Source: Hydractinia symbiolongicarpus
Lineage: Eukaryota > Cnidaria > Hydrozoa > Anthoathecata > Hydractiniidae
Assembly: GCF_029227915.1 (NCBI RefSeq)
Contig: NC_079877.1
Coordinates: 10,539,351-10,603,350, forward strand
Direction: 5' to 3'
Length of the DNA: 64,000 nt
Part shown: piece by piece, positions 32,052 to 60,351 of the stretch
How positions within the stretch are numbered: position 1 is the stretch's first letter
Layout: each line of letters begins with the position of its first letter
Notes under the pieces: model-generated
What the model saw: the letters and a program-made list of their open reading frames with translations, nothing else
Told to the model about the DNA's origin: nothing
Database searches by the model: none
Position numbers and translations under genes: made by a program

Positions 32052-34170
32052 CGATTGTTTCTGCCATGAACAGTAGTACTCAAGACATTTTAAGAAATTT
32101 GAATAATTCAAACTGATTTCACACATGTGCATAAATCTTCATCTCACGAACAACTTTTAAGCAATGGATACTTAATACAGATGTATAACAACTATTATAA
32201 AAAAGCTAGCTATAGCTAGCTAGAGCTTTACTAGCTTTAAAAATTAATAAATGAACTTTCAAATTACAGTAAAACCAGGTTAATTTCAAAGTAATCTTTA
32301 AGCTTCTACCTTTCGGTGAAAGATTACACAATATATTTATGTTCCCAAAGATTGTCTCAAATTAATTCCATTGGGACATATAGTTACAGTCCACACATTT
32401 CTCAATGAACTGTCTGTGTCTGTCAGTGTGCTGTATTTGTGGGCTCGCCAAGCAAAAATTATCATTCGAATCTGGGAAACCGAGAATAATTCCACTAGGC
32501 CGGATAATGCAAAAGCTTTTAAGAGGTTAAAAAGCTATACTTGCGCTCGCGCGCCAACCGTTCAATGCCCCCTAGGCGTATTTTCCCCTATATCTTGGTG
32601 CGCTTCTTAAACAGGGTTGTTAAAACTAATTATTTTATTTACAAGGATTTGAAGAGTATACGTTTTTAGAAAATTCTATTTTCATCTGGGATGTTCTTAA
32701 ACGCAATAAGCGTTTAAAATCAGGACCTGCCGTTTGCATACAGGACAGCTTTTTTATTCTGTTAGAACAGTAGCTTCTGCACTTCCTTTGTAAAGAAATA
32801 TAACGCGTTACCCCCAACATTACTAAGCGCTCTTTTCGGAAGCCGATCCCGTAAAGATGGTACGTTGTGTTAGAATTTAGAAGTCGACGAATACACATGA
32901 CGTAACTATATTTATCGAGAAAAATCACCACCTCGGACTATTGCGCAATCAATGCTACACTTCAAATGACGGTTTGATAAAATCTCGTGCAAATCATCCA
33001 TTGACGCTCACGCTAAAAAACGCTTCTCATCCTAAGGTGATTAACCACCCATCATTTAAAAAACATAAAAAGCCCTGGAGACAAGGTTGAAATTATTCTA
33101 TGTATTATTTCATGTTTAATGTACACTTTGTATATAAAATCGTCGAAAAAAGTAAAAATGGAAGCAAATGTTGGAGCAAAAGAGACAAACTAAGTCTATG
33201 CAAAAATGCTTTTCGTAATCTGCGAAATTAACCACCCGATAAGTAAATCATTTCTAATAGAGATCTCGGATGAAATCACTTTTTTTATTTGCATCTCTCT
33301 TTTAAAATCAGAAGAAAACATTAAAAGGGGAGCATTCTAGGCTATGGTTAAAATATCGATTTATAAAATGACTTTGCATATGATTTACTGTTTAACATTT
33401 GAACATTTTTTTGACTGTAAAAGGCAAAAAATAAGAACATTCAAAATCTTCCTCTGGTTCAGTGTAGGGCGTGGTTTTTATGACTTGTGCTATCTTTTAT
33501 GAAACAAACGAAAATTATCTTGCTACCGCGTCCGCTCACGAGAAAAAAAAACGCAAGCGATGGAAATTACAAAACCTACAGCATTAAAGGGAGGGCCTTA
33601 AATTTACACTCCTTTGAATAAACAATAAGAAAAAATATATAATTTTGTTATGAGGGACTTCGCCGAAAAGAAAAAATATAGCTGCCGTATCTGAAACTTT
33701 CTTTTAAAAATGTCAATAAAATATATTAAAACAGAACAAAGTTACATCTTTAAAGCAGGACTTTAAAAAACATGTCTGATTACCTAAACATGGCTAAACT
33801 CATAAAAAACCTTAATTTAAAAATATGTTAACTTTTAAAACTAATTTTAGAATGAAAAGAAACTCTGTAAGCTAGACACGGGTTGGTTTTAAAAATAAAG
33901 TGAGAAACCTTTCTAAAGCAGATATCACGAATATTCATGCGGGTAAAACCAAAAATAAAATATAATCGATCTGTACTATACATCTAAAAACTACTTTGAA
34001 TATTAAAAATTTATTTCTTAAAAACTCTTATTAAATTTATTTACATTTTATATCTTTTCTTGTTTACTATCTCTTTTAGTCGTGACAGAAGAAGAAGAAG
34101 TTACCCACTCCGACAGAAAAAAATTAATTTCCTCAGTAGTTTTATTACCTAGTTGAATCGAGTCGGTCGT
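32052..34170. other. spacer between the TSC22 and EGF-mucin genes
   Basis: Both flanking genes run on the minus strand, so this holds the TSC22 promoter and 5' UTR and the 3' UTR of the EGF-mucin gene. Open frames at 32371-32610 and 32635-32931 resemble nothing known. No further feature could be supported. Confidence 0.5.
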
Positions 34171-37100
34171 TTAATATTCCAAGTTCGATTTCTCTACGCT
34201 TCCATTTGAATACATATCGAGTTTGTGAGTGTTCGGATTCGATATAACGGCACTGGCGCGTTTGTTTGCAATCGTGAAGTCATCGAGTTCTTTCGAGTAG
34301 CTTAAAACCCTTTAAAATAGATAACTGCATAATTATTCTGTGAACTAAAACTATAATACATTTTAACCTGAATATTTGTCCCTATTCCCGGACAATTAAC
34401 CCCTTCTAATATTCACGAGTAATTTCTCACTCAGAGGCTTATTTCTGCCTAGAATAACTGCTAAATATACAGTATGCATTGACCTAGGTCGTATTTATCC
34501 CGCGGTTCATTATCTAGGTGAGTTATCCTAGGCGGAAATTGTTTGGGAGCAATTAATCAAGAGGTAACAGGTAGGGTGGTGAATTTGTCCGCGGGAAATA
34601 CAGAAGTTTTCGTTTTGTTCCTTTTTGGCTAGAAATGCGACTTTTAAATAAATTTATTTCGTAGAGATTACTCTGGTAAGGTGCTGAAATCAAGCTGCGC
34701 GCAGCTATTTCGAACACACAAATTACGAGAATTGTTGATGTAAACTAAAAGCCGGATTATAACCGTTTTAATCTTCCGATTTAAGACGAATCTATCCTTT
34801 AAAATCTCCTCATGAGAGTTTAGGCTACAATAATCTGCAGAATTTGTTTATACAATTATTCAAAAGGTTATAGAATCTATGTGTCAAATTGACAGTCCTA
34901 CAATAACTATCATTACTTCAGGGCGTATGAAACATGAAAAAAATAGTATTGGTTCGTCGGAAAGGGGTCTTGTAAATGTAACGAAATATGGGGGTGGGCA
35001 GTGCTAGGTTTGTTACCATAGTTACATGGGGGTTGAGATGGGGTGGTTCAAAAATTTTTTTAAAAATTTCATCCCTTTCCACGATGTTAGTCATCCATTT
35101 TTAAAACCAGCTGTCGATGCATCAAAGTATATTTTTAAAAATGGCGGAAACAAGAACGAGAATAAATAATTCATACATACACAAGAGACATATTTATAAG
35201 CATATAATCTTTCTCGCAATAAAATCTCTTTTCTTTCATTTAGATTTTTTTGTACAGAGAATCCCAAATTAGGAAATGTCTGGCAATAACAAAATGGTTT
35301 TCATAGAAACTACCCCGGGTATAATATTTTGTTTTTGTTCATTCATTCATTCATTCATTTATTCATTCATTCATTCATTCATTCATTTATTCATTCATTC
35401 ATTCATTTATTCATTCATTCATTCATTTATTCACTTATTTATTCATCCAGTTCGGTTAAACAAAAACAGGATTACAGGGAAACATTTTTACGGGTTTTAA
35501 ATTTATTTTTTCAGGTTGCGTAACTTAGTAAAAAATATGTATCTACTTACGCACTTCCCTTCCGCAGTTCTTTATTTCTACAGGAAATCATAAAAGCAAT
35601 GACTATTAACAAGAATCCTGTCGTACCACCCAGGGCGTACGCAAGTTGTTTGTACACTAAAAACAAGACCAGAAGAAAAGTTAAAAGTGTGTCAAGGGGT
35701 GCGGTGTGGTTGATACGCTAGGGATTATTAGTGTTCCTCGTGTCTTACATTCTCCGAGGAGGGTGATAGAACGTAGGGTGATAGATCGTAGAACGATCTC
35801 GCCGCAATTTAACTGTTCGCAATAAAATGCCACAATATTGAGATCAAAAAAAGCTTTTGTTTCCTTAATGAATGCTAATGGTATTCAAGCCGCTTTTAGT
35901 AGCCTAGATGTTTTCAGAAGTGGAAACTTCACTAACGTCTAAATTTCAGCTCAGGCTGGATGTGCTTATTTTTGTACACTTTTCTAGCCTGGATTGATTT
36001 TGTGTTCTTCCGAATGTTGGTAAATTATATATTTCAACAAAATGATAGAAAAAATGCATTACGAAATTGAAGTTATCTTATTGTCAAAAAATGAATGTTC
36101 ACTAGTTAAAAAAATTCTTAGTAATTCTAGACATTTTGTTCTTACTCTATCACATCTGATTACAGTGTGGTTCCTTTTAGTGAGCCCGTGTTCGTTAAAT
36201 CACGGCCGCCTTCGCAAAATTCGTGTCAGCATTACGCCAGCGGTCTATGCACAAAGTTTTATAAAGCAAAACTTGTTTAACAAAAATATATATTCACACG
36301 TGCTACACACGCAAGCTCGCGGATATCATCCTATCTCACATTATAAAGGATAGCTAACTATATAACTATATAACGATAACTATATAATATATATAAGATA
36401 AGATACGATAACATAAGAGATAAGATAAGAAGAGATAACATAAGAGATAAGATAAGAAGAGATAACATAAGAGATAAGATAAGAAGAGATTACATACAAG
36501 ATAAGATAAAAAGAGATAACATAGGATAACATAACATAAGATGAGATGAGATAAAAGAAGATAAGATAAGATGAGATAAGATAAAATAAAATAAAAATAG
36601 GAAAAAATAAAATTTCAGAAAAAAAGGTTATTAACAGAATGCAAAAATGTACAGCACACATCCTATGAAGATTTTTTTTATTTCGAACATATTTTTCGGT
36701 CTCTTGAGCTTGGTCTAATAAAGTCGAACATTTGCCTAATTCTAACAGTTTTTTTGGGAATTCGAACATTTGCTAATTCAAACAGCTTTTTTGGTCCCCG
36801 GACTAACGCTCGCTAATTCGAACTTTTGCGCACCTAATCTAAAACTGTAACAAAAAAAAGACATTTTAAATGATGTAACAAATTCTTAGACAGTCTTTGG
36901 TAAAGAATTTTGAGAAATTATATCCGAATTCCTATTTTTCCCATAACGGGTGTCTACTGTAGTTGTATATTTATGATTTTTTCATCCCTTTTACATACAT
37001 TTAAAGTTAAATAATAGCCAGCATATACTTCAAGATGTTCATACCTGGTTTGAAAGTGGAAGCCTACTTTGAAGAAAATACGAGGAGAAAAACTCGCGAA

Positions 37101-40100
37101 ATTAGGGTTAAACTTTTGCCCATTTTGTTTAAATCTAGGCAAAAACAATTTTTTAAGAAATGCATGTAAAAATATATTAAAATATAAGAGACAAGAAACA
37201 GCTAGTTTCAAATTTCGTTAATTTGAGAGAGCTTTCTCTTTTCAGCAAACCAATTACATTTATTTATTTATTTATTTTATAATTCTTTAAATTTAAGTTG
37301 ATTTTACACTACACGCGATGTTTCACCTAATGATTCTTTTTTGTCTGTAAGTTTTGAGGCTTTTTTAAATTTGAGACAGGGAGAGGATGGAAGTGTTTGA
37401 AGACTTCAAGGTCACGTCTTTAGACCAACGATAAAAATAGTTATTCTATGAGTGACACAGCGGATGTGAGGAGTGACACAGCGGATGTGAGGAGTGACAC
37501 AGAGGATGTGAGGAGTGACACAGCGGATGTGAGGAGTGACACAGAGGATGTGAGGAGTGACACAGCGGATGTGAGGAGTGACACAGAGGATGTGAGGAGT
37601 GACACAGCGGATGTGAGGAGTGACACAGCGGATGTGAGGAGTGACACAGAGGATGTGAGGAGTGACACAGCGGATGTGAGGAGTGACACAGAGGATGTGA
37701 GGAGTGACACAGAGGATGTGAGGAGTGACACAGCGGATGTGAGGAGTGACACAGAGGATGTGAGGAGTGACACAGCGGATGTGAGGAGTGACACAGAGGA
37801 TGTGAGGAGTGACACAGCGGATGTGAGGAGTGACACAGCGGATGTGAGGAGTGACACAGCGGATGTGAGGAGTGACACAGAGGATGTGAGGAGTGACACC
37901 GCGGATGTGAGGAGTGACACAGAGGATGTGAGGAGTGACACAGCGGATGTGAGGAGTGACACAGCTGATGTGAGATAGAGATGTTTTTCCGCCTGTTTCT
38001 TGCTTATAAATAATTTTACGCGCGTAATAACTTTATCGCGCATAAATCTTCTCGCGTTCGCGTAGGTCTTTTGCAAGAATATTTCAGTGGAAAAATCAGC
38101 AAACGCGTTGAGCTACGCGCAACCATGTTTAACGGAAAGACAGACAGTATACAGCCAAAAATAAAGGGACAGTGAAAGCAATGCAATATATATTCGATAA
38201 TTCTACCGAAGACTTTTAAACAGGTTTAACAAATTAACTTATTTTTTGGGGGGGAACGAAATTTTCGACAGAAAAAAATAGATTTCAACGAATAACTTTA
38301 GCGAATGGTTCCTCCATTTTTTTTATTTTTTTGCGAGAATTAACTTTTACGCATAAAAATGTATGCAACGATAAAAAAATGATTTGGGGTCAATTGAGTA
38401 GATTAGCAAGTAATTTACGACATCTTAAGCAATATGGATAAAAGTAATGGAAAAAACAAAAAAATATTCCACCAAATCAACAGGGCACAAAATTGACATG
38501 AATTTTAAAAACTTAATTAAATGTCCCTTATTAAAGTATATTTTCTCTTAATGTACCTTTCCCGAATTTCATAAATTATAATAATTATGACGTCATCCAA
38601 AATTTCATAATGGTTTTATGTTCTATAAGGACATTCAGGTAGAATATCAAATGATCATGACAAACTAAAGTTTTTACATCAATATAATATTCTGGTTGGA
38701 TTTTATTTTAATTTAAAAAAATAATTATTTTGAAGATGAAGTTATCATTAGAAAACCTTTTAGTTTTCATTTAGCATCGACTTTTTTTAATAAAGTTTGG
38801 TCAGGAAAGGTCTATTGATTTCCGCAAAAAAAGGTCTGTATCGTTCCGATACGGTTGGTTCTCTCATGGATGTAAAAAAATTGTCAACGAGCCCATTCTC
38901 AAAACAAAGATAAACATTTCCTGATTCGCGTAGACCTTTCCCGAATTTCCTTATTATGCCAAACTTAGTTAAAGAGGTCGATGCTAAAAATGATTCTCAT
39001 TCCTAAGTTCCTTATCAAAAGGTAGAACAAATTACCTAATTTCGTGTATATATATTTTCCTTAAGTGCCTTAACTGCGTGCTGAAAGTTACGGTCAAATC
39101 CTTCAATCAGCCGAGCTTTCTAAAAATAACCTCGTTTTTAAAATATTCTTTCATTAAAATAAAATCCAACTAGAATATTATATTGCTCTAAAAACATCAG
39201 TTTTGTCATGATAACTGGATATTTTATGTGAATAACCTTATTTAAAGAGCATAGAACCCATATGAACTTTTGGATGACGTCATAATTATTATAATTTATG
39301 AAATACGGGAAAGGTGTGTTGAGCTGAATTGTTACAGGTATTCGCGGTAACTTCTTTATCGTTAATTTCGCGATTGTTACTTTTGTACCCCGTTAATTTC
39401 CTGAAACAAGGTAAACTCCAAAAGACATGACGATAAAAACATTTCCAGCGAATAAACTTTCGCGAAAGGCCTATTTTAACATATTTCCAGAGAGTAAGCT
39501 CCGCGGTCTATCCCTTTAAAAAATTCTGTCCTTACTTGCGCAATTTTGTTCAAAAAATTCTTCTCTCAGAAAGATAACCATTAAGATTTAAAGCAATAAC
39601 AAAGAGAAATGTCCCAAAAAAAACATGACATTTATCATCAATTTTAAACGCAAAGAGGCACGTTCGCCATCTATGAAACCTACATGTGGGAAATAACACC
39701 CGATGTGACCTTAATTTATTTTCTTTTACTTTATATAAACTAATTTTATTTTTCTTTATTAAATTTGATTAGCATATATCAAAACATGATTTTTTTTTCG
39801 AAACAATAAACAAATCATCTCAAAAGATTTGAAAGCATTAAAAAAATGGAAAAAGCGAATTACATCATAACGAAGCTTGTTATATGTTTCGAACAATCAT
39901 TTTTTTTATATATAATTTATTTAATTTAAAATAAACAAACAAACATAAAGAAAGAAAGCGTAGGAAAGAGTACTAAAAAACGTAGCTGAAAATAATTTAG
40001 GCTTTTATATCAGAACAGTAACTTTGAAACATTTAAACAAAAATACTTGATACTATTTCGAAATAAATTTTAGTAAAAGAAGACAGAATAGTTTACTGCG

Positions 40101-43100
40101 GAAAGTGAAAAACTAAGGAAGCAGAAAAAAATGTTTAAAAAGTTTACGTTGCAGTAAACTGGAAAATAATCACAGCCATGGAGAACTACACCAACCAATC
40201 ATATCAGGAAAGCTATGAAGAAGCCAATACAGAAGTCAAATACGTGCAGGTCGTTATACTGTCAGTTCTATCCGTTCTTATAATTACTGGAAATGTTTTA
40301 ATATTAACAGCATTGCGGAAAGTAAAGAAATTTCAGAAAACCACAAAGCTGTTCATCTTTTCTCTCAGCATCGCAGATTTATTCGTTGGTGCCATTTTGA
40401 TACCGCTTAGATTAAACGAAGTGTTCCTAACCACGTGGTCGCAAACCGTTGAATGGTGCAAGCTCTCCATCTCGGTGAACATTTGGAACTTATCAGCGAG
40501 CAGTTTTAATTTGCTAGCTCTCAGTATTGAAAAATTAATCTTCCTAGCTAAACCAATGGAATACGACAATATTGTCACATTTAAACGATGCGCCATCATT
40601 CTTTTAGCATTATGGTGTTTTTTCACAAGCGTTTCATTTATACCCATCTTCTCAGAAATCGCTCTACAAGACGCCGCCATTAGACATGCTCACGATCACT
40701 TGTGCAAATATGCCACAACACTGAAAGACGAGTACTTAATCTATATGTGCGTGTGTGACGTCATCCCGCTTGTTTTGTTTGGCGTGATATACTTTTGCAT
40801 TCTAAAGACCGCTCAACAGCAAATACACAAAGCGCAAGCACGATTTAGCAAAAGCGCTGTCAATGAAGAATTTAAACATTTAAAGAAGACGGAGAAAAAA
40901 AACACGCGATTGCTCGTTTCTTTAGTCGTCGTGTATTACGTTTGTTGGATTCCCGCCATTGTAGCGGAATATTTGAGCATACGTCACGCATACCTGGTCA
41001 CACAGACCTTCATTTTTGTCATTTCTGCGCTGGTTTATTTGAATTCGTTCTTAAACAGTATCGTCTACTACTTCTTCAACGACGAGTTCAGAAAGTTCTT
41101 CAAAAGATACGTACGCAACATTAAAATAGGAACCAGGAGACGAATGAGCGGTGACTTTCTTAGTAGGCCCCCAACATCAACACATGGGTTTAATATGTCA
41201 CGTATTGCCATGACAACAATAAAAAAAGCTAGCTAGCAAGAAACAACACAACAATATTCAAAATAGTTTCATAATAATGTTGCTGACGTCATCAGTTCAT
41301 TATGTTGACATCTTTAATGAAATCAGTTGCATCACAAGACAGATCTGAAAGTTGATATCAATACAAAATAAAGCACAAAACTCATGAGTGATATTAACAT
41401 GCTTGAAACAGCTCGCTTCAATTAACCCCCCTCCAACGTCATGCCGTTTTTGTGTGTACACCACTTACTTTGCGCGCCAACGCGTTAAAATCGAACTAAA
41501 GAACTTCTTTATCTATAATACGCGCAAATAGTTACTTGTATAAAATTGTAGAACATACTTACACTATCAAAAAAAAGAGAAAAAATGGATGAAATCGCCC
41601 ATGCAAGTTTAAAATAGAAGTTTTGTAAACTTCAAAGACTGTGTGCATGATTCATTTCATATTCTTTTTTTTAAGTGACAGCTTAGCTCGGACTGACGCC
41701 TTGTGGCAATCTGTTCATACGACAAATCGTCACTCTCGCCTAGGCCTTTTTTGAGAGGAGGGGGAAGAGGTATAAAAAATAGTGTTGCAGTCACTTAGGT
41801 GGGACGGTTATGCTTATAAGCAAGGGCAGCTAGCTGTTTCTTGCTCATGTTGATTAAAATGTATGGGAAAAAATCATTAAGATGGTTGTATGACACTAAT
41901 AGCTTTGAGCTCCCTAAACAGTCTGGCCACGAGTTACCAGAAAATTACACTCAACTTTAAGTTACTTTACAGAACAAAAAAGAAAAACTGAAGAACACAC
42001 GGTGTAAATAGATCCACAACTAGTCACATTGAACAACTAGTAAGTACAATAAATGCTTACATTGCCATTTTCTTTCATCGTCATCAGATGACAGCTGACA
42101 TCTATCACCATAGTAACCTCCACGACAACTAAACATAAACATTAATGGCGGAATTAAAAAACAAATCAAAAATAGCAAGTTCAATGCAAATCTACAACTC
42201 TCACAATCGCACTTCATCGCGGAAAATTGCTACTTTGTCAAAGGCTTAGGTTATGAAAGCAGCGTTCAAATTGCGCTATTTGCACTTTCTTACATGTCCG
42301 CTTCACATGATAATCCGCGCCCGCCCAAAGTTTAAGAAAAATGGCCTCACTGACGTTAACAACAATTAGAACACTGTGATAGTTGGAATCTAACCAAATA
42401 TGATCGTAACATTAACAAGTTTACTATAAACTCAAATTGCTTGAACCATGGAGGTATACCCTGTATAGGTAAGCCTTATATTTTTACTCACAAAATTTGA
42501 TTACAAACCGACATGCAGATCCCGAGTTATGTAGTCGTCAGCAAAAAATTGAGAGGCCTGGGACGAGCAAAAGAGTGTCATTTTGGCAAAAAAAATTTAT
42601 GTCAAACAATTCACCTTTAAAATATCTATGCATTGTTAAAGTTTGAATGCATATCCTTTAACAGGTCTAAAATTACTATATTGAAGAAGAACTACTTTGT
42701 TCATCACTAACATACTGCCAAGCAGTGAGCGGGATTCGATCCGCGGTCCCCAGAACTGGGAGCCGCAGACGAACCCACTACACTACGTGCGGCAATATGG
42801 TAGCGATGAACTCAGATAGTTTATCCGGATGGTGTGTATAATACATTTGTTATATATATTCACCTATATCTAAAATTACTGATGACAGTCAGCATAATTA
42901 AATCTGAAATTCTGTAAAATGTGAATATCTTGAAAACAAAAAGAGCTTTTTAAGAAATTTAAAAAGATTTGTTAACTAACTTTTTTAAGCTCTATTATAT
43001 AAGACCAGCATCATGTTATACCTTGACTTCCCTTTAACAGAAATAGCCTTTATAATTTCTTTGTAGGGACAAATTTTGAACATTGTCACCCTGTCTCAAT

Positions 43101-44901
43101 ATAATGTATGGAAGATTGTATATATCCCACATATAAAACTCAAAAATATTTCAACACCATTTTTGGACAGCTGCTAAAAAATTTTCAGCCTTATATGACG
43201 CATGCGCAGTAATGATGATATACTTACTAACAGATCGATGTGATTTTATTGGATGAATCCTTCTTTCCTTTACAAACTCCGCCATTTTGACAAAAGTTAC
43301 GCTCAACATTGACACACTTTCCATCGGTAGTACCTGCAACAGAAAAACAGATACTTCAAAAAGGTTGTTGAGAACACGTTGAGAAGTGCATTTAACAAGC
43401 TATTCGGTCTGGCGCAGAAACCAAATATGTTTTTTTGTCCTGATTACACAGTGCATATGAAAAATAATCTTTTAAATAATGATGTGAATCTAAATGACAA
43501 TACAGCCACACATGAATTTTTCAACCTTTTTAATTGATTTTTGAATTACGTGATTTTTGAAGTTATTTCCGAAGAGTCTATTATACATAGGTAAAAACAT
43601 TTAGTCGTCTATTTTAGGCTTTAATGTTTTAAAGCAAACTTAGAAGGCAAAACCCAAAAATGGATTGATCTTAAATGTAACGTTTATAGTATTATTTGTA
43701 AATTAGTCGTTAACCCGTGAAAAATCCACGGGGTCGCCCATCCTTTATATACTGCGTTTCGTATGTCTCGCTACTTGAGATGCCATCTTGCGCAGAGACC
43801 GACAGAATATGGCTATTATTATTTGTAAACATATTCATGCAAGCGATTATCAAAACCCTTTTCCATATCCATTTTTGTTCTGCTAAAAAAAACAGGCAAA
43901 AAGGCTGAATTACATAAAAACAATATTATTTAAGGAAATTGTGGATGCTAGTTGCTTTCATGTTGTTTTTATGTTTTACTTTCTATCACAGACAAGCCTA
44001 ACGTTGAACTTTCTATCACAGACAAGCCTAACGTTGAGAGAGGAATCAACTTAGACGCTCGGTCATCATGTCAGGGAATCGCGACTTTAAAAATTCTTGG
44101 GGGTCATCAGCCTAAAAAAAAGATTTTCGTACGCTAGTGCCTTTGGGAAAAGTTGGAAAGGAGAGTGACGTCCATTACAAAATTAAAATATAGGGTGTTG
44201 GTTATTGCCATGCAGACATTAGGGAGAAAAAGGAAGGTCAATAAAAACAGACAGGTGTTTTACTACCATGGTTTTTTCAATACAAATATATAAATGTGAA
44301 ACCTACCTGGAGTATATGTTGTCGTTTTCACTGCTGGATTTGTTGTTTTATCTGCTGTTGTTGTTGTTGAATTTGTTGTGTTCCGGGTTGTTGTTGCTGC
44401 TGCTGTTGTTGTTGAATTTGTTGTGTTCTCTGTTGTTGTTATTGTTGAATTTGTTGTGTTCTCTGTTGTTGTTGCTGTTGTTGTTATTGTTGAATTTGAA
44501 TTTGTTGTGTTCTTTGTTGTTGCTGCTGCAGTTGCTGGTATTGTTGTTGAATTTGCTGTGTTCTGTGTTGTTGTAGCTGTTGTTGTTGTTGTTGATGTTG
44601 TTGTATTTGTTGTATTCTGTGTTGTTGCTGCTGCGATTGTTGTTTTTGAATTTGAATTTGTTGTGTTCTGTATTGCTGTTGTTGTTGTTGTTGTATTTGT
44701 TGTGTTCTGTTTTGTTGCTGTTGTTGTTGTTGTTGTTGAATTTGTTCTGTTCCGCGTTGTTGCTGTTGGGGTTGATGTTATTAGATTCATTGTTGTTGTT
44801 GTTGTGTTCATTTTTGATGTAGTGCCGGTTGTGGAATTGTTCTGTGTGAATACAACATTGGCCAAAAGAAGGAAGGTCAGTATTGTTTTTATTAGTATCA
44901 T
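34171..44901 (-). CDS. membrane-anchored mucin-like protein with ErbB-ligand-type EGF domain
   Basis: Five exons in transcription order: 44901-44307, 43333-43228, 42128-42061, 35656-35551, 34300-34171. Every junction completes a codon in frame, giving 334 residues. Order: signal peptide (1-19); Thr/Asn/Ser-rich stalk with many N-glycosylation sequons and dense O-glycosylation potential (20-198); one EGF domain (C205-C244); membrane span (about 261-282); 52-residue tail ending EY. EGF cysteine spacing is CX7CX5CX13CXCX8C with the GYYGDRC signature, the spacing I recall for neuregulins. The domain is split by an intron between cysteines 4 and 5, as in vertebrate EGFR-ligand genes. Only about 16 residues separate the domain from the membrane, as in shed growth-factor precursors. 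The tail has a Y322-S-N motif that could bind Grb2-type SH2 domains if phosphorylated. Inferred role: pro-ligand for an EGFR/ErbB-like receptor. Alternative: a transmembrane mucin. Intron 3 contains a GPCR gene on the other strand. Confidence 0.85.
35335..35450. repeat. (ATTC)n microsatellite
   Basis: attcattcattt repeats beside the membrane-span exon of the EGF-mucin gene, in intron 4. The Ser-Phe-Ile-His frames it creates are artefacts. Confidence 0.9.
36383..36600. repeat. gataa/gataac low-complexity array
   Basis: Imperfect repeats of gataagataagaagagataa with a roughly 30-base higher-order period, in EGF-mucin intron 3. Confidence 0.8.
37448..37975. repeat. 21-bp minisatellite, 25 units, two-state
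   Basis: Twenty-five units of agtgacacagMggatgtgagg, where M is C or A. In the longest + frame they would read SDTADVR or SDTEDVR. Because 21 is a multiple of three and the unit lacks stops, frames are open on both strands. With no flanking exon signals and a position in an intron, it is judged non-coding. The A/E order is AAEAEAEAAEAEEAEAEAAA then EAEAA. Confidence 0.93.
38555..39315. mobile_element. long foldback element: two inverted copies of one MITE family
   Basis: The left half begins acctttcccgaatttcataa followed by attataataattatgacgtc. The right half ends with the inverse, gacgtcataattattataat then ttatgaaatacgggaaaggt. Each half is about 380 bases and related to the single copy at 27078-27459. 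A second inverted junction (gacctttcccgaatttc near 38932) lies in the middle. Located in EGF-mucin intron 3; no transposase. Confidence 0.65.
40178..41236 (+). CDS. class A (rhodopsin-like) GPCR, orphan, nested gene
   Basis: 352 residues in one uninterrupted frame with seven hydrophobic segments (about 23-47, 57-80, 94-118, 136-158, 187-209, 245-267, 273-299). Class A marks: N39 (TM1), SIADL with D67 (TM2), C94 and C176 for the extracellular disulfide, W146 (TM4), P197 (TM5), CWIP (256-259, TM6). N-terminal sequons NYT and NQS suggest glycosylation. Odd: DRY at the end of TM3 is E118-K119-L120, so R3.50 is Lys; NPxxY is N293-S-I-V-Y, lacking the Pro; and position 3.32 is Asn101, so the amine-binding Asp is missing. 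General look is amine/adenosine-receptor-like but the ligand is unknown. The coding region lies antisense within intron 3 of the EGF-mucin gene. A splice acceptor (ttgcag) ends at 40154, 23 bases before the ATG, so a 5' UTR exon or trans-spliced leader is possible. Confidence 0.93.
   Translation: MENYTNQSYQESYEEANTEVKYVQVVILSVLSVLIITGNVLILTALRKVKKFQKTTKLFIFSLSIADLFVGAILIPLRLNEVFLTTWSQTVEWCKLSISVNIWNLSASSFNLLALSIEKLIFLAKPMEYDNIVTFKRCAIILLALWCFFTSVSFIPIFSEIALQDAAIRHAHDHLCKYATTLKDEYLIYMCVCDVIPLVLFGVIYFCILKTAQQQIHKAQARFSKSAVNEEFKHLKKTEKKNTRLLVSLVVVYYVCWIPAIVAEYLSIRHAYLVTQTFIFVISALVYLNSFLNSIVYYFFNDEFRKFFKRYVRNIKIGTRRRMSGDFLSRPPTSTHGFNMSRIAMTTIKKAS
42690..42820 (-). mobile_element. tRNA-like SINE head with inverted flanks
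   Basis: On the minus strand at about 42796-42722 there is an A box (tagtgtagtggg) and B box (ggatcgaatccc) with a foldable T-arm, but no matching acceptor stem, so it is not a functional tRNA. On both sides is an inverted pair: tggtagcgatgaact on the + strand (about 42798) and tgttagtgatgaaca on the - strand (about 42713-42699). In EGF-mucin intron 2. Confidence 0.5.
43705..43830. repeat. short dispersed repeat, copy C
   Basis: Starts tagtcgttaacccgtgaaaa and contains tgccatcttgcgcagagacc, ending in gctattatta. It shares its ends with copies A and B elsewhere in the window. In EGF-mucin intron 1. Confidence 0.5.
43979..44037. repeat. tandem duplication of about 29 bases
   Basis: ctttctatcacagacaagcc followed by taacgttga occurs twice in a row, in EGF-mucin intron 1. 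Confidence 0.85.
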
Positions 44902-47198: not shown

Positions 47199-48654
47199 GT
47201 TGCTTTTTTTAGGATTTAATTTTATGATCACTACATTAGATAAGCAATTAAAAATAATTAAATACAAAGTACAGAGGCAGACTGAGAAAGACTTGGCACG
47301 AGGTTATAAGGACAGACTTGGTACAGAGGAAGTTGAGTTTAGATCTAACACAGTCTAGATCAGATTGTAAGAGGGTCATTAATATACCCCGTCCAACCCA
47401 TGCTAGCATGGAAAACGAACGTTAAGCCGAGAATGATGATGAAGACGATGATGATTCTGAAGAAAAAAAAATTGGAAAGTTATGTTTATGACATTAAAAA
47501 ATGAAGTTAATGGTAAAGTTAAGTTGATGTGTATAATCAGCTACTAAATATTACAACAACTAAAGTCTGTTAAAAAATACCCGGAAACAGATAAAATAAA
47601 TAATATAAATATAAATATCAAAACATGTGTAAAGTAAGCATGGAAATGGATTGCACCAATACACCAATTTTGTCTTGTATGTCCTATATTTTATAAACTT
47701 AAAACAGTACATATTCATATTCTGCATAGTCATTTTACAGAAAAATCACATTTCAATGTTGCAAAATACATAAATAAAAAATTACATTTTGTATGATTGT
47801 GATCTACTTTTAATACAAATTTCTTGTTACATTTCCAAAAATACATGCCTGTGTAACTTTCAGAAAAAAATATGTACTTCGAAAATAAAAATTGTTTGCT
47901 CAGGACAAGAAATACATATAAAAATGAGTGTCTAATTCTTCACTGCAGCTCTAATAACATAATTTGTGTGCAAGCAAATGTAGACAAAGTTTCAACTGAG
48001 TTCATAGAGTTCATAAAGGTTTATGTCGTCGTTTACTTGCCGATGTGACCAAAAATTGAAATAAAAAACATGAAAGGCATAGACACTGGTGTTATATTCT
48101 AATCTTGATTATGGTAAAGATGATAACGTAGAGGTTTTATTGGTTGTTAAATAAGATGTATAGAGGAAACACTTTGGAAGTTGGCCTACCTCACCTTCCA
48201 AACTGGCCAAATGCAGGTAAAAAACAGTCAGAATGGAATCTAATAGTCGTGGCCAGATACAAAACAATCCAATTCAAACTAGTTTTCCATATCAGTCGTT
48301 TTAATTTTCATAAATTAAGAGCCAAATAAAGAGAAAAATATTTATATGTAATAATTTACAGCACAGGCTGAAAAAAAAATAATAAAAACTTGAAATCACA
48401 ATTGAAGTATTTCAAGTAAAATAAACTGCAGAAAAATGGTATTATTTATTTATTTATAGCAGTTAAAAATACCCTTATTTTATGATTACTTTAGAGTTAT
48501 ACTGCTACAAGTTATACTCATTTATTTAATACATAACTTATCAGATAAACATGCCATTTAAAGTTTTCTAAGTTTATTATCAATTTTCTACAGAAATAGA
48601 AAAAACATGATATTTATTAAAAAACACTACAAATTTATTTTGTAGACAAACAAA
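47199..48654. other. spacer between YEATS4 and RBMX2
   Basis: Holds the YEATS4 promoter and RBMX2 3' end. On the minus strand AATAAA-like signals (tttatt on +) occur within about 50 bases below the RBMX2 stop. A retrotransposon 3' fragment occupies 47265-47580. Confidence 0.5.
47265..47580 (+). mobile_element. 5'-truncated non-LTR retrotransposon, 3' end, copy 1
   Basis: Nearly identical, in inverted orientation, to the 3' part of the copy at 51080-51716. It shares the segment gatctaacacagtctagatc, the ccaacccatgctagcatgga segment, a gatgatgat microsatellite and the tail up to aactaaagtctgttaaaa. It preserves the last residues of the ORF (..[11 protein letters not shown] and stop). Confidence 0.75.
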
Positions 48655-51600
48655 TTATCTTCTACTCCTGTCTAAACTGTTACTTCTAGATCGTCTTTTT
48701 TTACGGTACAAAGATGAGTGTCTTTCTCTATTATCTTTCACTCGATGCCTACTATGGTCATATTTGTCACGTTTATGATAATCATTGTCATCAGAATATC
48801 TATCCTTTCTAATATGTGGATCATATTCTGCAATTCTTTTCTTTTCATTTTTGTCCTGTCTCTCAATATGTTTTCCGCTATAGCTGTCATCTCTATGAGA
48901 CCTCTCCTTTTCGCTTTTTTGAACTTTATTTTTATATTTAGTATCAGTATCAGAGTCAGACTCTTCTTGGAGTGATTCAGACTTTTTTTTCTTTTTCTTT
49001 TTCTTCTTATCCTTGTCCTTCTTTTTCTTCTTTTTCTCAGGTTTATAAACAAGTGAAGGCTCATCATCACTTGGCTCAGGTGACGGAGTTCTTGGAGCAC
49101 AACCAGTTTCTATTTTGTCTTTATATTTCCCACTTTCGTCTTTTTCATCGCCCTTTGGAACACGATACTCTCCTACGTGATCAACACGAATCGTTCTTCC
49201 ACCCAGCTACAATATAAGAGTATATTAGTTCAAGAAATTGATTATAAACATTTTCGTATGATTATCATAGTAGTTGCTAAAGTAGACTTTTTTAAATTTT
49301 AAAAATCATTAGGCAGATGATCTACCACAATGTGCTCAAAACTCTGCTAACTTGAATACTGTATTTTCTGGTATATAACCCGCAGGTTATAAGTTGATTT
49401 TTACGACTTCCACCGTTAGTGCGGGTTATGTGATAAGTTTTATATTTAAAGTTTATACATTCAATAAAGAAAATAGTACCAACAGGATAAAATGCGTACA
49501 TTAATATAACTGCATGCGCGATCCTATACCTACGTAATCTTACTTCAACTACGTGATTTAATTTTTTTTACACAGTGAAATTGCTTTCTTTAACTTTCTA
49601 TTGCTTGCCATTGCTAATATTACGAGCTCTCTCTGAAACACAATTCTGGAGATTATTGGCAGGAGAGCATTGGCTGAAACTAATGTCTCCAAATAAAAAG
49701 AAAACAGCATTGTCTGATTTAGTACTCTCGGCATTAGCAGAAGATCGACTTGTCAAATTAATTTTAATTCATTATTATTTCGGCAATCGGAGACAAGGAA
49801 GTTAAGACTAAAAGAGTCGCTAGTTCAGACACTCGGTTCTTGTGTCTGGGGTTCACAAGTTTAAACGTCCCCCACTTGTCTCTAGCATGAAAAAACAGAA
49901 CACACGCACATGGTTATAAAATGATTAGGGTAATTAAAAATACGCTGAATTTTCTTCTTAGCATGATGCGGGCTATGCAAAGGTGCGGGTTAGTAAAACA
50001 CATTGCTTGAAATTTTATGCGAGTTATACGAAGGTGCCGGCTATCTGATAGCATCTAGTTTATAACTCCCTAAAAAAGCTGAGCTGTGGATTATACGATG
50101 TGTGGGTTTTATACCGGAAAATATGGTAAATAAAAAATTGTTTTATCATCTCTGCAAAAAGAAATCCCTGGACTTGGACAGATTTTCAGGACTGCTCTTT
50201 CAGTTGTTTTTTTGAAATACTTTTTATATACCAAGGGATTTAAAGTGCTCCGAAATGAGGAGAAAGCACAGCGCTAATCAAAGTTTAAGACATCAAATTT
50301 TTAAATGCAAAAAAAGTTCACAAGTGCCATCAATCTAAAACTAACAATTTAACATGCTTTTAGTTTTTTTAATCAGAATTTAAATGATCTTTAGAACGGA
50401 TCAAAAACAACATAAAAACGGAGACAAATTGAAATTTTGCTTCTGAAATTTTTAAAATTTTGCTTCTGAAATTTTTGAAAACTGTATATCAAAGAAAATC
50501 CAAAAATATCAACAATGTATCCACACCAGTGTAGAACTAATTAGAGCAAATTAAAATGATGTTATAGCAATGTTTTAAAACAAAGCTTTTCTGCTCTTTG
50601 TTCACAGTTGACTGACTATCAGTGTAACTTTCAAACTCAAAAAACAGCCACTAAGTTATAGGCAGAGCATTTCCTAAAGCTTCTTCAGTAAAATGCATTC
50701 TGTCATGCTGCAACATCTCAGAACAGATTGTGCTTGAGCAAGCCTCGTTATTTTTTGCAAATGTTAAATTAAACAGAAGAACATAGCCAACAAAACAAAC
50801 CTTTATGCCATTAAAATTATCAACAGCTAATATCGTGCTTCGCTGATCTTCGTAACAGAGAAATCCATATCCTTTGAATTTTCCAGTTTTCTTATCACGA
50901 ACAAGATTAATGTTAACAATCTCTCCATACCTAAAAAATATATGTGATCATGTAGAGATGTAAGTGTGCATATGGAATCTGTTTTGCCCTGACAGAAATA
51001 TGTAAAGTCTTGAAATTAGCTTACTAAGCAACACTTATACACTAAAATTTTAGCACTAAAATTAGGCAAATATCCTTTTTGTTTTAACAGACTTTAGTTG
51101 TTGTAATATTTAGTAGCTGATTATACACATCAACTTAACTTTACCATTAACTTCATTTTTTAATGTCATAAACATAACTTTCCAATTTTTTTTTCTTCAG
51201 AATCATCATCGTCATCATCATCATTCTGGGCTTAACATCCGTTTTCCATGCTAGCATGGGTTGGACAAGGTATATTAATGACCTTCTTCCAATCTGATCT
51301 AGACTGTGTTAGATCTAAACTCAACTTCCTCTGTATCAAGTCTGTCCTTAAACCTCCTGCCAAGTCTTTCTCGGTCTGCCTCTGGGCTTTGCCCCAGGAA
51401 CTATCAAGTCTCTACACTTTCTTACCCAATTATCCACCTACATTCTTTCCAAGTGCCCCAGCCAATTCAATCTTCTTATCTGGATAACATCTTTAATTCT
51501 ACGGATACTTAGCCTGCTTCTTAGCTCATCTGAACCCTTTCTGTCTCTCAGACTGGCGTTACACATCCACTTAACCATTCTCACATTCCTTTCTAAACGG

Positions 51601-54600
51601 TCAAGATCTTCCTGCTTCAGTGCCCATGTCTCACTATTGTACAACATAACACTTCTTACACAGGCCTCATATAACCTACCTTTTACCTCAATCGACAAGA
51701 CTCTGCTAGTCAACAAAGGAAGTAACTCTCTGAACTTTTTTCCAAGCAGAACCTATCCAGAAATTCTCAACTAACTCTAACAAGCCACTGTTGTACATCA
51801 TTAAAGCTAGAAATACTTCATTCTCAAAGAAAAAAAAAAGAAATGACCACAGATCTTCTTAGGACACTATTGTTGGTCCAAGTTGGCTCAAAAACAGTTA
51901 TAAAAGTTTAATTTTGATTTTGCATTTACAAAATTATACTTACTGGGAAAAAACACAAAGGACATCACCCTCAGTTAAATCATACGGAAGTCCTCCTACA
52001 AAATAAAAAATAAATATGTGTAAAAAAGCACAGGGTTTCAAATATTTTCATGATGCAGCTTATCATGTGTCTCTTTGAGAAAAAAACAAGGTTTTCAAAC
52101 TTTATCATAATGTAAACCCAACATCTTAAAAAAAGGCAATGTGTAGAAAAATGTTTTTATTCCTATATCACATATTACAAGGTTTTTACCTTGAATTATT
52201 TTAAGGTTTTCAAAGTTTAATTGTTCAGCAGTCACCCGGAGACAATTTTTTCATACAGTGATTAGCCATTGATTGTTTTTAACAGTAGTTACAAAAAACT
52301 TTTAAAAAAGCTTTTAAAAGGGCAAAAAGTGTTTTTTCTCAATCAATAATCAATCAATCTATACTTAACATGTTTGAATTAAATACCATGTATTAAAATT
52401 GTGATTGAAGCCGAAAAAATGATACAAATTTTAATCAGAGTTATTTGGGCTTCCACACAATTTTGATAGTAAGCGAACAGCCAGACACAGCAGTCTACGC
52501 TGTTCCTTAGTCCATTAGATATATAAATGTGTTGTCTTATTCAACAGCTTGCAAAAAGAATAGCTCTCATTACCAACAAAAATATAAGCACTGTCTTTAT
52601 ACTGTGCATGCCATGTTAGATTGTGATCAAATCTACCATTCTTTATGTCTTGTTCATTTAACTTTGTCACATTTCGAACGTTTCTAAAATAAATAAAGAA
52701 ATGCTAACTATTTATGAGAAAGAATAAAGCAAACCATATACTATGCTCATCATTACATATTCCTATATGTTTAAAAACAAGCCTACAACTCAGGAAATAA
52801 TAATGTAAACAGCAGACTTAGGATCTTATAGGTTATTTGGTTAGATAAAAAATCTTGAAGGATGATAATTTTTGCCATAATTCCACCATATTTCAGGCCT
52901 TTCTAGGTCATGGAGCAGAGTGTTCGATAAATGCAGTTGTGGAAATGCAGCCAGTGTATGTTTAACGTTGCTTATACTTGGCCTACAACTAAGTATAACT
53001 TTAGCTGTGAAGTACTGGCCAAGTGATGCTGCTTGCCTATTTCTAATAATTTCTAATAATAAACAGACAATTTACCAAATATCATGCCTAAAACGAAAAA
53101 TCAAGGCATAACTAGAAACTTAGACAAAAAAGGTGGTCATTGCAGTTTTTTAGTTATTCCTTGAAATTAGCAGCTAAACTAGTACAAAAAAATAATTATC
53201 AATTTAAAATTAAAAAAAGTTACACCAGCCAGTGATAATAAAGTTTAAATCCAAAGTGACCATAGTTAATCAGTTAGTTGTCTGCTTTAGCCAAATCTTA
53301 AAAATTTTGGTCAACTATTCTTATTCTTTAATAGTGATGGACATTCAACATCAATGACTGTCTGTTACTTCAATTATCCATTATATACTTTTAAGACCTT
53401 GAAATTTATTATACCAGTTTACAACAACATTTCCCACATATTCCATAAAAAATTGTAACAGAATTACTCATAAAAACTGCAGGTACACAACCACAATTTC
53501 CAACCCATGCACATTAGGGATCGTCTATTAATTCCATCCCATTAATGAGACGATGTTAAGACAAAAAAGTTAAAAAAAAATTTATTTGTTCTATCAGCAG
53601 ACGATTCTTTGTCAATTCGTCCCCGAAAGAAAAAAGTGGTATAAAATATTGTGAGATGAATTACGACAAATTCAAATCAAGGAGACGAGTTGAGACCAAA
53701 TCAGACGCTACGGTCAATTCAAGGAAGCAAATTGAGACAAATTAAGACGCTGTGGTTTCTTAAACACGGAAGGTTATGTAAGCTGGCAATTTTTCAAGTG
53801 GTTTTAGCTATGTAGTCACATATTGCAGATGTTTCAGATATTTCAGATAGCAACAACAATCTAGATTGGTTTTTCACAGAATATTCTTTGCCCGATAATG
53901 ATAAAGATGAAGCTTAAAGAAATTTTACAATGGGGTTATCTTGTTGTAAAAGTTTCAGCAACGACCTTGAAAACAAAAAAATATATATTGCTCAATTTAT
54001 CTTGTAATTGGACAGTGGTCATAAGAAAAAAACAATTATAATTATATATATATACTTATTTTTTTTTCATAAATACAAATTTTGATGATGCAAAAATCTT
54101 TTAAAAAAATTGCTACCAACAACAAGATTCACAAATATTCCAAAAGCCGCATTAAATAACGTAAATGATTATCTTTGCTGATAAAGATTATTTTTAGACA
54201 AAAAAAATTACATTAAGAAAAAAAAAAATTGGACAGCCATTTGTTTAGACGTTCAGTTGAGCAACCTATTTCCCATGTATTAAAATTTACATCAGTTTTT
54301 TTAAAACCTTTAAGCCTTTTCCCTTTACGCTTCATTTAGGTCAGTTCAATATTTGGTTTAATTTTAATGAAAATAATAAAAACAAAAGAAATAATCATTG
54401 ATCCATTAATACATTGATCCTCCTTTAACCATTATTATTGTTTATTTGCTTAACATACTAACAGACTACGATTTTTTAAGAGATGTTGCACAATGATAAC
54501 AATTCATCAAACTTTACTTTTACACACACAGAGGCCCATTTGAGGCATAGGGACAGTGTAATGGTGTAAGTTAAAAAAGACATACTTTCTCACGTAAAAA

Positions 54601-58837: not shown

Positions 58838-60351
58838 TACGATGGCCCCTACGGCTCACTTCTCTTCCATATTAAAAACACTTCTCTTCTATATAACGAA
58901 ACACTTCTCTTCTGTACTTTGACACTTCTCTTCAGTATTTTGACACTTCTCTTCACCTAACACTTCTCTGCATGTGGCTCTTTACAACTTGAATTCTAAA
59001 ATCTGGTCCGCAATTTTACATCATTGGTCCGTAGTTTTAACCTTTTGTGAGGTTTATTACATGGGACCAGTCCCCTCGCCATGTGACATATTTTAACAAG
59101 AATAAGGTCTGATGATGGTACTGAAGACTGTATTTTGGAAGCTGTTGAGATTGCATTAAGATCTCAGCATAATGACGAATATGCTGGCACTGGCAGTTTT
59201 CTTGTTGGTACATCAACAGCTAATCAAAGAATCGAATCTTTTTGGTCACAACTTTCAAAAGACAGACCAAGTTGGTGGAGGTTATTTTTTAGAGAACTTG
59301 CAGAGTTAGGATTTTTAGATGCTGGTGATGCACTCATTGCTGAATGTGTACGCTACTGCTTTATGGATTTGATCAGAAAGAACCTTAATAAATTTGCGAT
59401 TCGTTGGAATCAACATCTGCTAGCACCAAGCAAAGGTGCTACTGCTCCCTGTTGAAGGCCTGATACATTGTACTTTGTTCCAGAATTATATGGTTGCAAG
59501 TCTTGAGCTAGAAGAGTTTAGCGAACTATCTGTACCAGATCACGATAATGAGCCTGAATGTATTGAATTTGCGGAAACAGTTCTTCCAATGGAGGGTTTC
59601 TCCAAACTTAAGCCAGATACAGCTCATGAAGCTGTTGATTATTGTATCGCCTTGATTTGTGCAGTAGAAAGATATATGTACCTGTAACAATGTAAAATGC
59701 TTGGATTTTAGAAATAAATATCTTGTTTTTTGAAAACCACGAGTTCTTTTCCCAACAAACATCAATGCTAATTGCTGCAAAAATAAATATTTTGGTTTTT
59801 GTAAACCACGAGTTCTGTTCCTAACAGTCATCACAATCAATGTTTATTCCGGGATAAGGGTCAATTGTAACACGCAAAACGTTCTAGTTTTGCCAAATCA
59901 CAATTATAAAAGTTCAAAGTTAGTGGAAACTAGATAAAAAAAAGCAATCTTGTATTACGCTTCTGGGACCATATAAGAATATAGCTTGAAATTTCGCAAA
60001 GTTTTTCCCGCGAAAAATCTAATTTTGTAGAAACGTTAATATGCCCCCGTAAGAATTTATGCAAACTTTACTGGTCCAAAATTTCCTATGCGCAGGGCCC
60101 GGTATGTGCCAATTATTCATAAACAAAAATCTGGATAAATTCATATATTAAGGACCATATTCAGTCTGGGAAATTTTCTTGGAAGAGAAGTGTTTCGCAC
60201 ATGGAAGAGAAGTGTTTCGAACGGAAGAGAAGGGTATCAAAGTAAAGAAGTTTTTTATACAGAAGAGAAGTGTTGTTATACAGAAGAGAAGTGTTTTGAC
60301 TAAGAGAAGTGTTTTTATTGAGAAGAGAAGTGAGCCATAGGAGCCATCGTA
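58838..60351. mobile_element. DNA transposon with repeat-filled terminal inverted repeats (IS3EU-like)
   Basis: Ends TACGATGGCCCCTACGGCTC (left) and the inverted TACGATGGCTCCTATGGCTC (right). Both ends continue into several tandem units of acacttctcttc (left about 58858-58970, right about 60170-60330 inverted). Flanks ataatac (58831-58837) and ataaaac (60352-60358) agree at 6 of 7 bases, a possible target duplication. The interior holds a decayed DDE transposase. Confidence 0.8.
59096..59687 (+). pseudogene. decayed DDE/integrase-type transposase
   Basis: The frame through 59452 encodes RSDDGTED (second catalytic Asp region, 59105-59128) then TSTANQRIESFW (catalytic Glu region), WWRLFFRELAELGFLD and YCFMDLIRKNLNKFAIRWNQ. 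As I recall, this pattern belongs to integrase-like transposases of the IS3EU type. A stop at 59453 is followed by RPDTLYFVPELYGC in the same frame and then by a second frame to 59687, so at least one stop and one frameshift break it. The first catalytic Asp region is missing. Confidence 0.75.

Follow-up and report, generated by a model that had tools for sequence, protein, structure and literature searches.

A predicted five-exon gene on the minus strand of the analysed stretch of Hydractinia symbiolongicarpus DNA (64,000 nucleotides; the window) is read here, from its exons, phases, module type and layout in the sequence, as encoding an ErbB-ligand-type, mucin-stalked EGF protein. The explanation that we favour, and consider moderately probable, is that of a hydrozoan type-I membrane gene in which an EGF module of the ErbB-ligand lineage is carried on a mucin-like stalk, is displayed or shed, and acts without a canonical EGFR. 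The predicted protein has 334 residues and is encoded by five in-phase GT–AG exons between 44901 and 34171; all four introns of the model are GT–AG and in phase. Its layout comprises a signal peptide, a Thr-rich stalk, one EGF module, a 16-residue spacer, one membrane span and a 50-residue tail, distributed as follows.

44307..44901, minus strand: coding exon 1, with the start codon, signal peptide and Thr-rich stalk
43228..43333, minus strand: coding exon 2, EGF module from Cys1 to Cys4
42129..43227, minus strand: predicted phase-2 intron between Cys4 and Cys5, at the position described for ErbB ligands
42061..42128, minus strand: coding exon 3, Cys5 and Cys6 of the EGF module and the acidic juxtamembrane spacer
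35551..35656, minus strand: coding exon 4, membrane span LAYALGGTTGFLLIVIAFMISC and basic stop-transfer
34171..34300, minus strand: coding exon 5, cytoplasmic tail ending EKSNLEY, then the TAA stop

The open reading frame from 44901 starts with MILIKTILTFLLLANVVFTQ, a signal peptide; directly 5′ of the start codon lies acceptor-like sequence, a hint of a further, untranslated exon upstream. The stalk has 180 residues (50% Thr, 14% Asn, 10% Ala and 7% Ser), and imperfect tandem repeats, among them one of about 51 bp, make up its coding sequence; 19 N-glycosylation sequons are present in the ectodomain. For exon 4, downstream phase-1 acceptors were scanned for a hydrophobic stretch, and among the 22 candidates the acceptor at 35656 ranks first by its polypyrimidine tract (0.85, against 0.65 for the next best) and is followed by the span and then by a basic stop-transfer. 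The span begins at residue 261, with Cys6 16 residues ahead of it, and an AATAAA at 34146 provides a poly(A) signal 25 bases past the TAA stop. The initial annotation had placed the EGF domain about 16 residues outside a membrane span, downstream of a signal peptide and stalk, and this arrangement is reproduced in the predicted protein. The interval that it gave, 42061..44901, does contain the EGF exons, but the gene extends beyond it to the span exon (35656–35551) and the tail exon (34300–34171).

Intron 3 of the model holds a single-exon rhodopsin-type GPCR (40139–41236, plus strand), nested on the strand opposite to the candidate; of its 18 relatives in the protein collection, an unnamed protein ranks first (94% identity), and the sole named one is a beta-1 adrenergic receptor-like protein from Clytia hemisphaerica (48% identity). 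This agrees with the cnidarian origin given in the initial annotation and makes a hydrozoan host the most probable. The same intron contains a minisatellite (37450–37974; 25 copies of a 21-base unit, 95% match), in which several frames are open on both strands. Elsewhere in the window, exons at about 1660–21702 on the plus strand carry a sortilin/VPS10 domain and an LDL-receptor class A repeat, with a hydrophobic segment near 21550, which suggests one SORL1-like sorting receptor gene. Open reading frames at 47303–45389 on the minus strand match the beginning of a YEATS domain at 21.7 bits (cut-off 22) and show, by eye, a C-terminal coiled coil; they may form a GAS41/YEATS4-like gene whose end lies about 0.5 kb upstream of the start codon of the candidate. 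A match to the Integrase core domain (rva_4, E 5.1e-13) at 59087–59455 on the plus strand is probably a mobile-element remnant. Fragments that resemble reverse transcriptase by eye occur at 51438–51752 on the minus strand of the window and at L019:1917-2522, downstream of an insulin-receptor exon; they share 25 protein letters, and their similarity at the two places indicates a repeated element.

When the exon at 43333–43228, minus its first two bases, is joined to that at 42128–42061, the product is CVNVERNFCQNGGVCKGKKDSSNKITSICYCRGGYYGDRC. The single EGF domain claimed for these two exons is thereby obtained at residues 205–244, and its spacing, CX7CX5CX13CXCX8C, is exactly as first described. 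The predicted join of exons 2 and 3 falls inside a Tyr codon, split as TA and T (phase 2), between Cys4 and Cys5. Both strands were scanned for such split modules, defined as a C1–C4 half with a donor and a C5–C6 half after an acceptor, in matching phase and 60–3000 bases apart; the real 64-kb window contains one with the required spacing, the candidate itself, and 60 sequences of 64 kb, simulated with the first-order base transitions of the window, yielded none. Because of this control and the ordered architecture, it is credible that the five predicted minus-strand exons form a real gene with the structure given above.

Sequence similarity supports the grouping of the module with the ErbB ligands, neuregulin-1 (NRG1) first, and away from structural EGF repeats. 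The comparison with solved structures gave 65 distinct sequences to E 10, and among the best 60 of these 65 the first five are all neuregulin-1 (E 9.8e-8 to 8.3e-7), two of them under the older name heregulin alpha. They are followed by mouse EGF (0.0013), an EGF/TGF-alpha chimera (0.0069) and another EGF (0.014); structural EGF domains start at E 0.016 with factor VII, the others being worse, and human EGF, HB-EGF, epigen, TGF-alpha and Spitz rank among them (E 0.034 to 1). As a control, a pair of adjacent EGF domains from the same genome (L002) was used, which matches Notch and Delta with E-values of 1.8e-45 and 4.2e-40 that are not comparable with those of the candidate because the query holds two domains. 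Named ErbB ligands are absent among the best 60 of the 90 matches of this control, and two of its matches are named EGF(+), which we take to be an engineered consensus domain. The initial annotation had proposed that ErbB ligands be set against Notch-type EGF domains, and on this comparison the candidate falls nearest to neuregulin-1 and the Notch-type control falls with Notch and Delta.

A ligand profile built from 12 ligand modules was compared with 122 control frames from the loci L001–L008, the top matches of the genome to a general EGF model (L003–L006 overlap, and L007 and L008 are a duplicate pair). The candidate scores 29.2 bits over 42 residues, that is, the whole module, against 22.0 bits for the best control single domain and 18.5 to 19.4 bits over about 30 residues for the next. 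Whole-frame scores are higher than that of the candidate in six multi-domain control frames (36 to 100 bits) because many domains are summed there; the comparison is fair at the level of single domains, where the similarity of the module to ligands stands above that of structural EGF repeats. The candidate is not listed for PF00008, the general EGF model of Pfam, is sub-threshold for Pfam EGF_2 (10.7–11.9 bits) and has one module only, which is not the pattern of Notch-type EGF repeat proteins, whose EGF domains match PF00008 and are usually in tandem. The general spacing of ErbB ligands is CX7CX4-5CX10-13CXCX8C, and the six cysteines of the candidate conform to it, with an Arg before Cys6. 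Identity outside the cysteines is 14 of 40 positions to NRG1 and five to ten to each of the other 11 ligands. The statement that neuregulins have the same spacing is borne out for NRG1, whose spacing is identical to that of the candidate and which is the only one of the 12 ligands aligned with 13 residues between Cys3 and Cys4. After Cys3 the candidate reads K-G-K-K-D, and in all 12 ligands at least one of the first two residues there is aromatic; in EGF–EGFR structures the strand after Cys3 packs on receptor domain I.

Given the small size of the module, and with Cys or Gly at nine of its 20 identities with NRG1 in the alignment, it may have converged on this spacing. One rival explanation is convergence or artefact: an ordinary EGF-like module would have drifted into the neuregulin pattern, or the exons would not be joined in the transcript. 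Searches of a large protein collection, which contains a Clytia protein, would also fit such an origin, since no homologue was recovered with either query; region 199–334 gave 29 candidates and the 135-residue part without the stalk gave three, none of them at E up to 1 or 10. However, four in-phase GT–AG introns, none in 60 simulations, the ordered succession of signal peptide, stalk, EGF module, span and tail, and the poly(A) signal just past the stop all argue against convergence or artefact, which we consider quite improbable.

The gene structure points in the same direction as the module. In the passages of Stein and Staros (2006; PMC1618406) drawn on here, the defining marks of ErbB ligands are a splice site that separates Cys4 from Cys5 and a module near the membrane, and an Arg before Cys6 is given for all verified ErbB ligands except tomoregulins; a passage of a paper on C. 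elegans IGEG-2 (PMC12485627) describes the C4–C5 intron as near-invariant. The candidate shows all three marks, namely the predicted C4–C5 intron (43227–42129), the juxtamembrane position, with 16 residues from Cys6 to the span, and the Arg before Cys6, and the view that a juxtamembrane EGF layout is typical of ErbB ligands agrees with the definition in those passages of Stein and Staros (PMC1618406). The neuregulin type as described in part of Barberan 2016 (PMC4914847) consists of an Ig I-set domain, an EGF domain and a membrane span. The Pfam scan of the full predicted protein found no Ig or neuregulin domain, so that the candidate is not a neuregulin in this strict sense.

According to the same part of Stein and Staros (PMC1618406), mucins 3, 4, 12 and 17, meprins and IMPG2 also satisfy these criteria, most of them without a known ErbB role. 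Since mucins share the ligand marks and the candidate has a mucin-like stalk, the strongest rival explanation is a transmembrane mucin, in which the stalk would be the functional part (surface coat, lubrication or barrier) and the EGF module would be a juxtamembrane adapter with no growth-factor role. Transmembrane mucins have a long Thr/Ser-rich tandem-repeat stalk and a SEA domain beside the EGF module; the 180-residue, half-Thr stalk of the candidate, encoded by tandem repeats, resembles the former, and the lack of a detected receptor in the genome is also in keeping with a mucin, but no SEA or other mucin domain was found by Pfam. The C4–C5 intron and the position of the module are common to membrane mucins, whereas the Arg before Cys6 is more in keeping with verified ligands than with several mucins, in which this place is variable (both from the passages of PMC1618406), and the best match is NRG1, in a comparison that held no mucin EGF module. 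We regard a mucin of this kind as unlikely, although it deserves serious consideration.

A receptor was sought in the assembly of the host genome (480,894,487 bases in 76 contigs, some of them of chromosome size), and no EGFR was detected by L domain, domain IV or kinase; the searches were made exon by exon, so that a receptor that is strongly diverged or divided among many small exons could escape them. The suggestion that the protein signals through an EGFR of the same genome accordingly found no support in them. The L-domain model PF01030 gives four matches in two loci on contig 1; for L1 the insulin receptor (83.5 bits) scores above ErbB4 (75.7 bits), and the kinase exons downstream of the L-domain loci are 51–85% identical to human INSR, from which both loci are assigned as insulin receptors. 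The model for receptor domain IV, PF14843, gives ten weak matches (L009–L018), all of which except L012 were read at the match site. L009 and L010 rise above the cut-off only together with in-frame neighbours and were read as furin-type repeats, L013–L016 and L018 have in common a short Cys motif that belongs to a single repeated family, and L011 and L017 show nothing receptor-like.

The human EGFR kinase query gave 141 matches in the genome, of which 98 (the 20 best, 60 more and a further 18, chosen by the authors and not strictly by rank) were classified against a panel of ten, then 14, kinases; no credible EGFR is among these 98. The classes found by the searches are insulin receptor, FGFR, FAK, Src-type and Syk-type, and as the FAK and FGFR exons were recovered at about 80% identity, orthologues are visible to the kinase search. 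Five matches with EGFR as the top kinase (L052, L053, L054, L111 and L119; 24–37% identity) were rejected on their Ser/Thr-type or non-tyrosine catalytic loops (HRDIKSDN, YRDLKPEN, HRDLKPAN, HRDLKS and HNDLHSKN). EGFR is less than 10 bits behind the best kinase in nine of the group of 60 (L078, L080, L084, L086, L087, L093, L110, L113 and L114); the longer stretches of L084 and L086 are SYK and ZAP-70/SYK-like, respectively, and L087 scores the same as L086. Among the last 18 are about eight further short matches with EGFR less than 10 bits behind, mostly Ser/Thr kinases by motif. L115 and L116, at first EGFR- or ACK-like, were assigned by PDB comparison as SYK (232.6 bits versus 178 for EGFR) and ZAP-70/SYK-like (182.8 bits for ZAP-70 versus 160.6 for EGFR). 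These are single-stretch scores, which were used for judgement because the top PDB entry for both, an EGFR chain of 678 residues (9p9u), is matched over two stretches and its whole-protein score sums the two. Of the other 43 of the 141 matches, 37 have 21–31% identity to EGFR, and the remaining six fall in the insulin-receptor loci (four), the SYK locus (one) and the ZAP-70/SYK-like locus (one).

Two further observations were made during these searches. L011, L013–L016 and L018 belong to a dispersed family of short Cys-motif open reading frames, with a motif of about CTQCKxxLPLDNFRIKGxGQRTKxCIKC, and are chance matches to PF14843. On contigs C1, C2, C3, C4 and C6 there are many same-contig pairs of matches with equal scores (for example, C1 6.95/9.21 Mb, C2 6.88/12.06 Mb, C3 3.43/9.99 Mb, C4 1.46/10.07 Mb and, in opposite orientation, C6 17.18/32.32 Mb), which could be haplotypes retained in the assembly or recent segmental duplications; the two insulin-receptor copies may be one gene.

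In the sections of Barberan 2016 (PMC4914847) used here, neither EGFR nor an EGF ligand was found in Nematostella and Hydra, and the neuregulin type is regarded as a bilaterian innovation; a 2021 tyrosine-kinome study (PMC8662651) likewise dates EGFR to bilaterians in the part used. A working ErbB ligand, shed and activating an EGFR of the same genome that is too diverged or too finely split for the searches, would account well for the module type, intron, spacing and layout, all of which match ErbB ligands. However, L-domain, domain IV and kinase searches gave no EGFR, while the same kinase search did find INSR, FGFR (80%) and FAK (80%) exons; EGFR is reported absent from Nematostella and Hydra in those sections of PMC4914847; and K-G-K-K-D follows Cys3, where all 12 compared ligands have an early aromatic residue. 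We therefore give little credence to a working ligand of this kind.

In the favoured explanation, an ErbB-ligand-type module on a mucin-like stalk, the module would descend from the animal ErbB-ligand lineage, and the stalk, with its many potential glycosylation sites, would be mucin-like. The protein would be displayed at the cell surface or shed there by cleavage, possibly in the acidic 16-residue spacer or in the Gly-rich outer half of the span. Less surely, it may no longer use a canonical EGFR, given the loss of the aromatic residue after Cys3 and the failure of the searches to detect an EGFR in the genome; its partner might be a different receptor, or it might serve as a cell-surface mucin that carries an ErbB-like module. 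A more specific history is that the growth factor outlived its receptor, cnidarians having kept an ErbB-type ligand with its ancestral C4–C5 intron after the loss of EGFR and rewired it to a different receptor; we think this doubtful, but if it were true the neuregulin-like module would predate Bilateria. The candidate may be described as a ligand in search of a receptor, and a cnidarian gene with the structure of an ErbB-ligand gene, in a genome in which no EGFR was detected, allows tests of the order in which this pathway gained and lost its components.

No study of a hydrozoan ErbB ligand is among the matches listed in the literature search. A coral larval proteome, in the part available, lists a protein annotated as pro-neuregulin-2 (PMC12960093), so neuregulin-like names for cnidarian proteins are already in print; that protein is cnidarian, like the candidate, and owes its neuregulin name to its authors. 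With EGF, TGF-alpha and Spitz the candidate shares the EGF module and membrane span of the definition in the cited part of Barberan 2016 (PMC4914847), and with EGF-type ErbB ligands the C4–C5 intron (passages of Stein and Staros 2006; PMC1618406). It differs from EGF-type ligands in its lower module similarity, its long mucin-like stalk and a receptor that was not found in the genome. A Thr-rich stalk and a short tail are present in membrane mucins 3, 12 and 17, as they are in the candidate. Like these mucins, the candidate has a juxtamembrane EGF module with a C4–C5 intron (passages of PMC1618406); it differs from them in that no SEA domain was found in it and in its Arg before Cys6. In native neuregulin-1 the EGF module adjoins the membrane span. 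The candidate lacks the Ig domain and the neuregulin tail of neuregulin-1, having a Thr-rich stalk instead, and lacks the aromatic residue after Cys3, whereas its EGF module shares with that of neuregulin-1 (PDB entries 3u7u, 1hae and 1hre) the identical cysteine spacing, including CX13C, as well as the Phe before Cys2, the NGG motif and the GDRC end of the NRG1 beta form.
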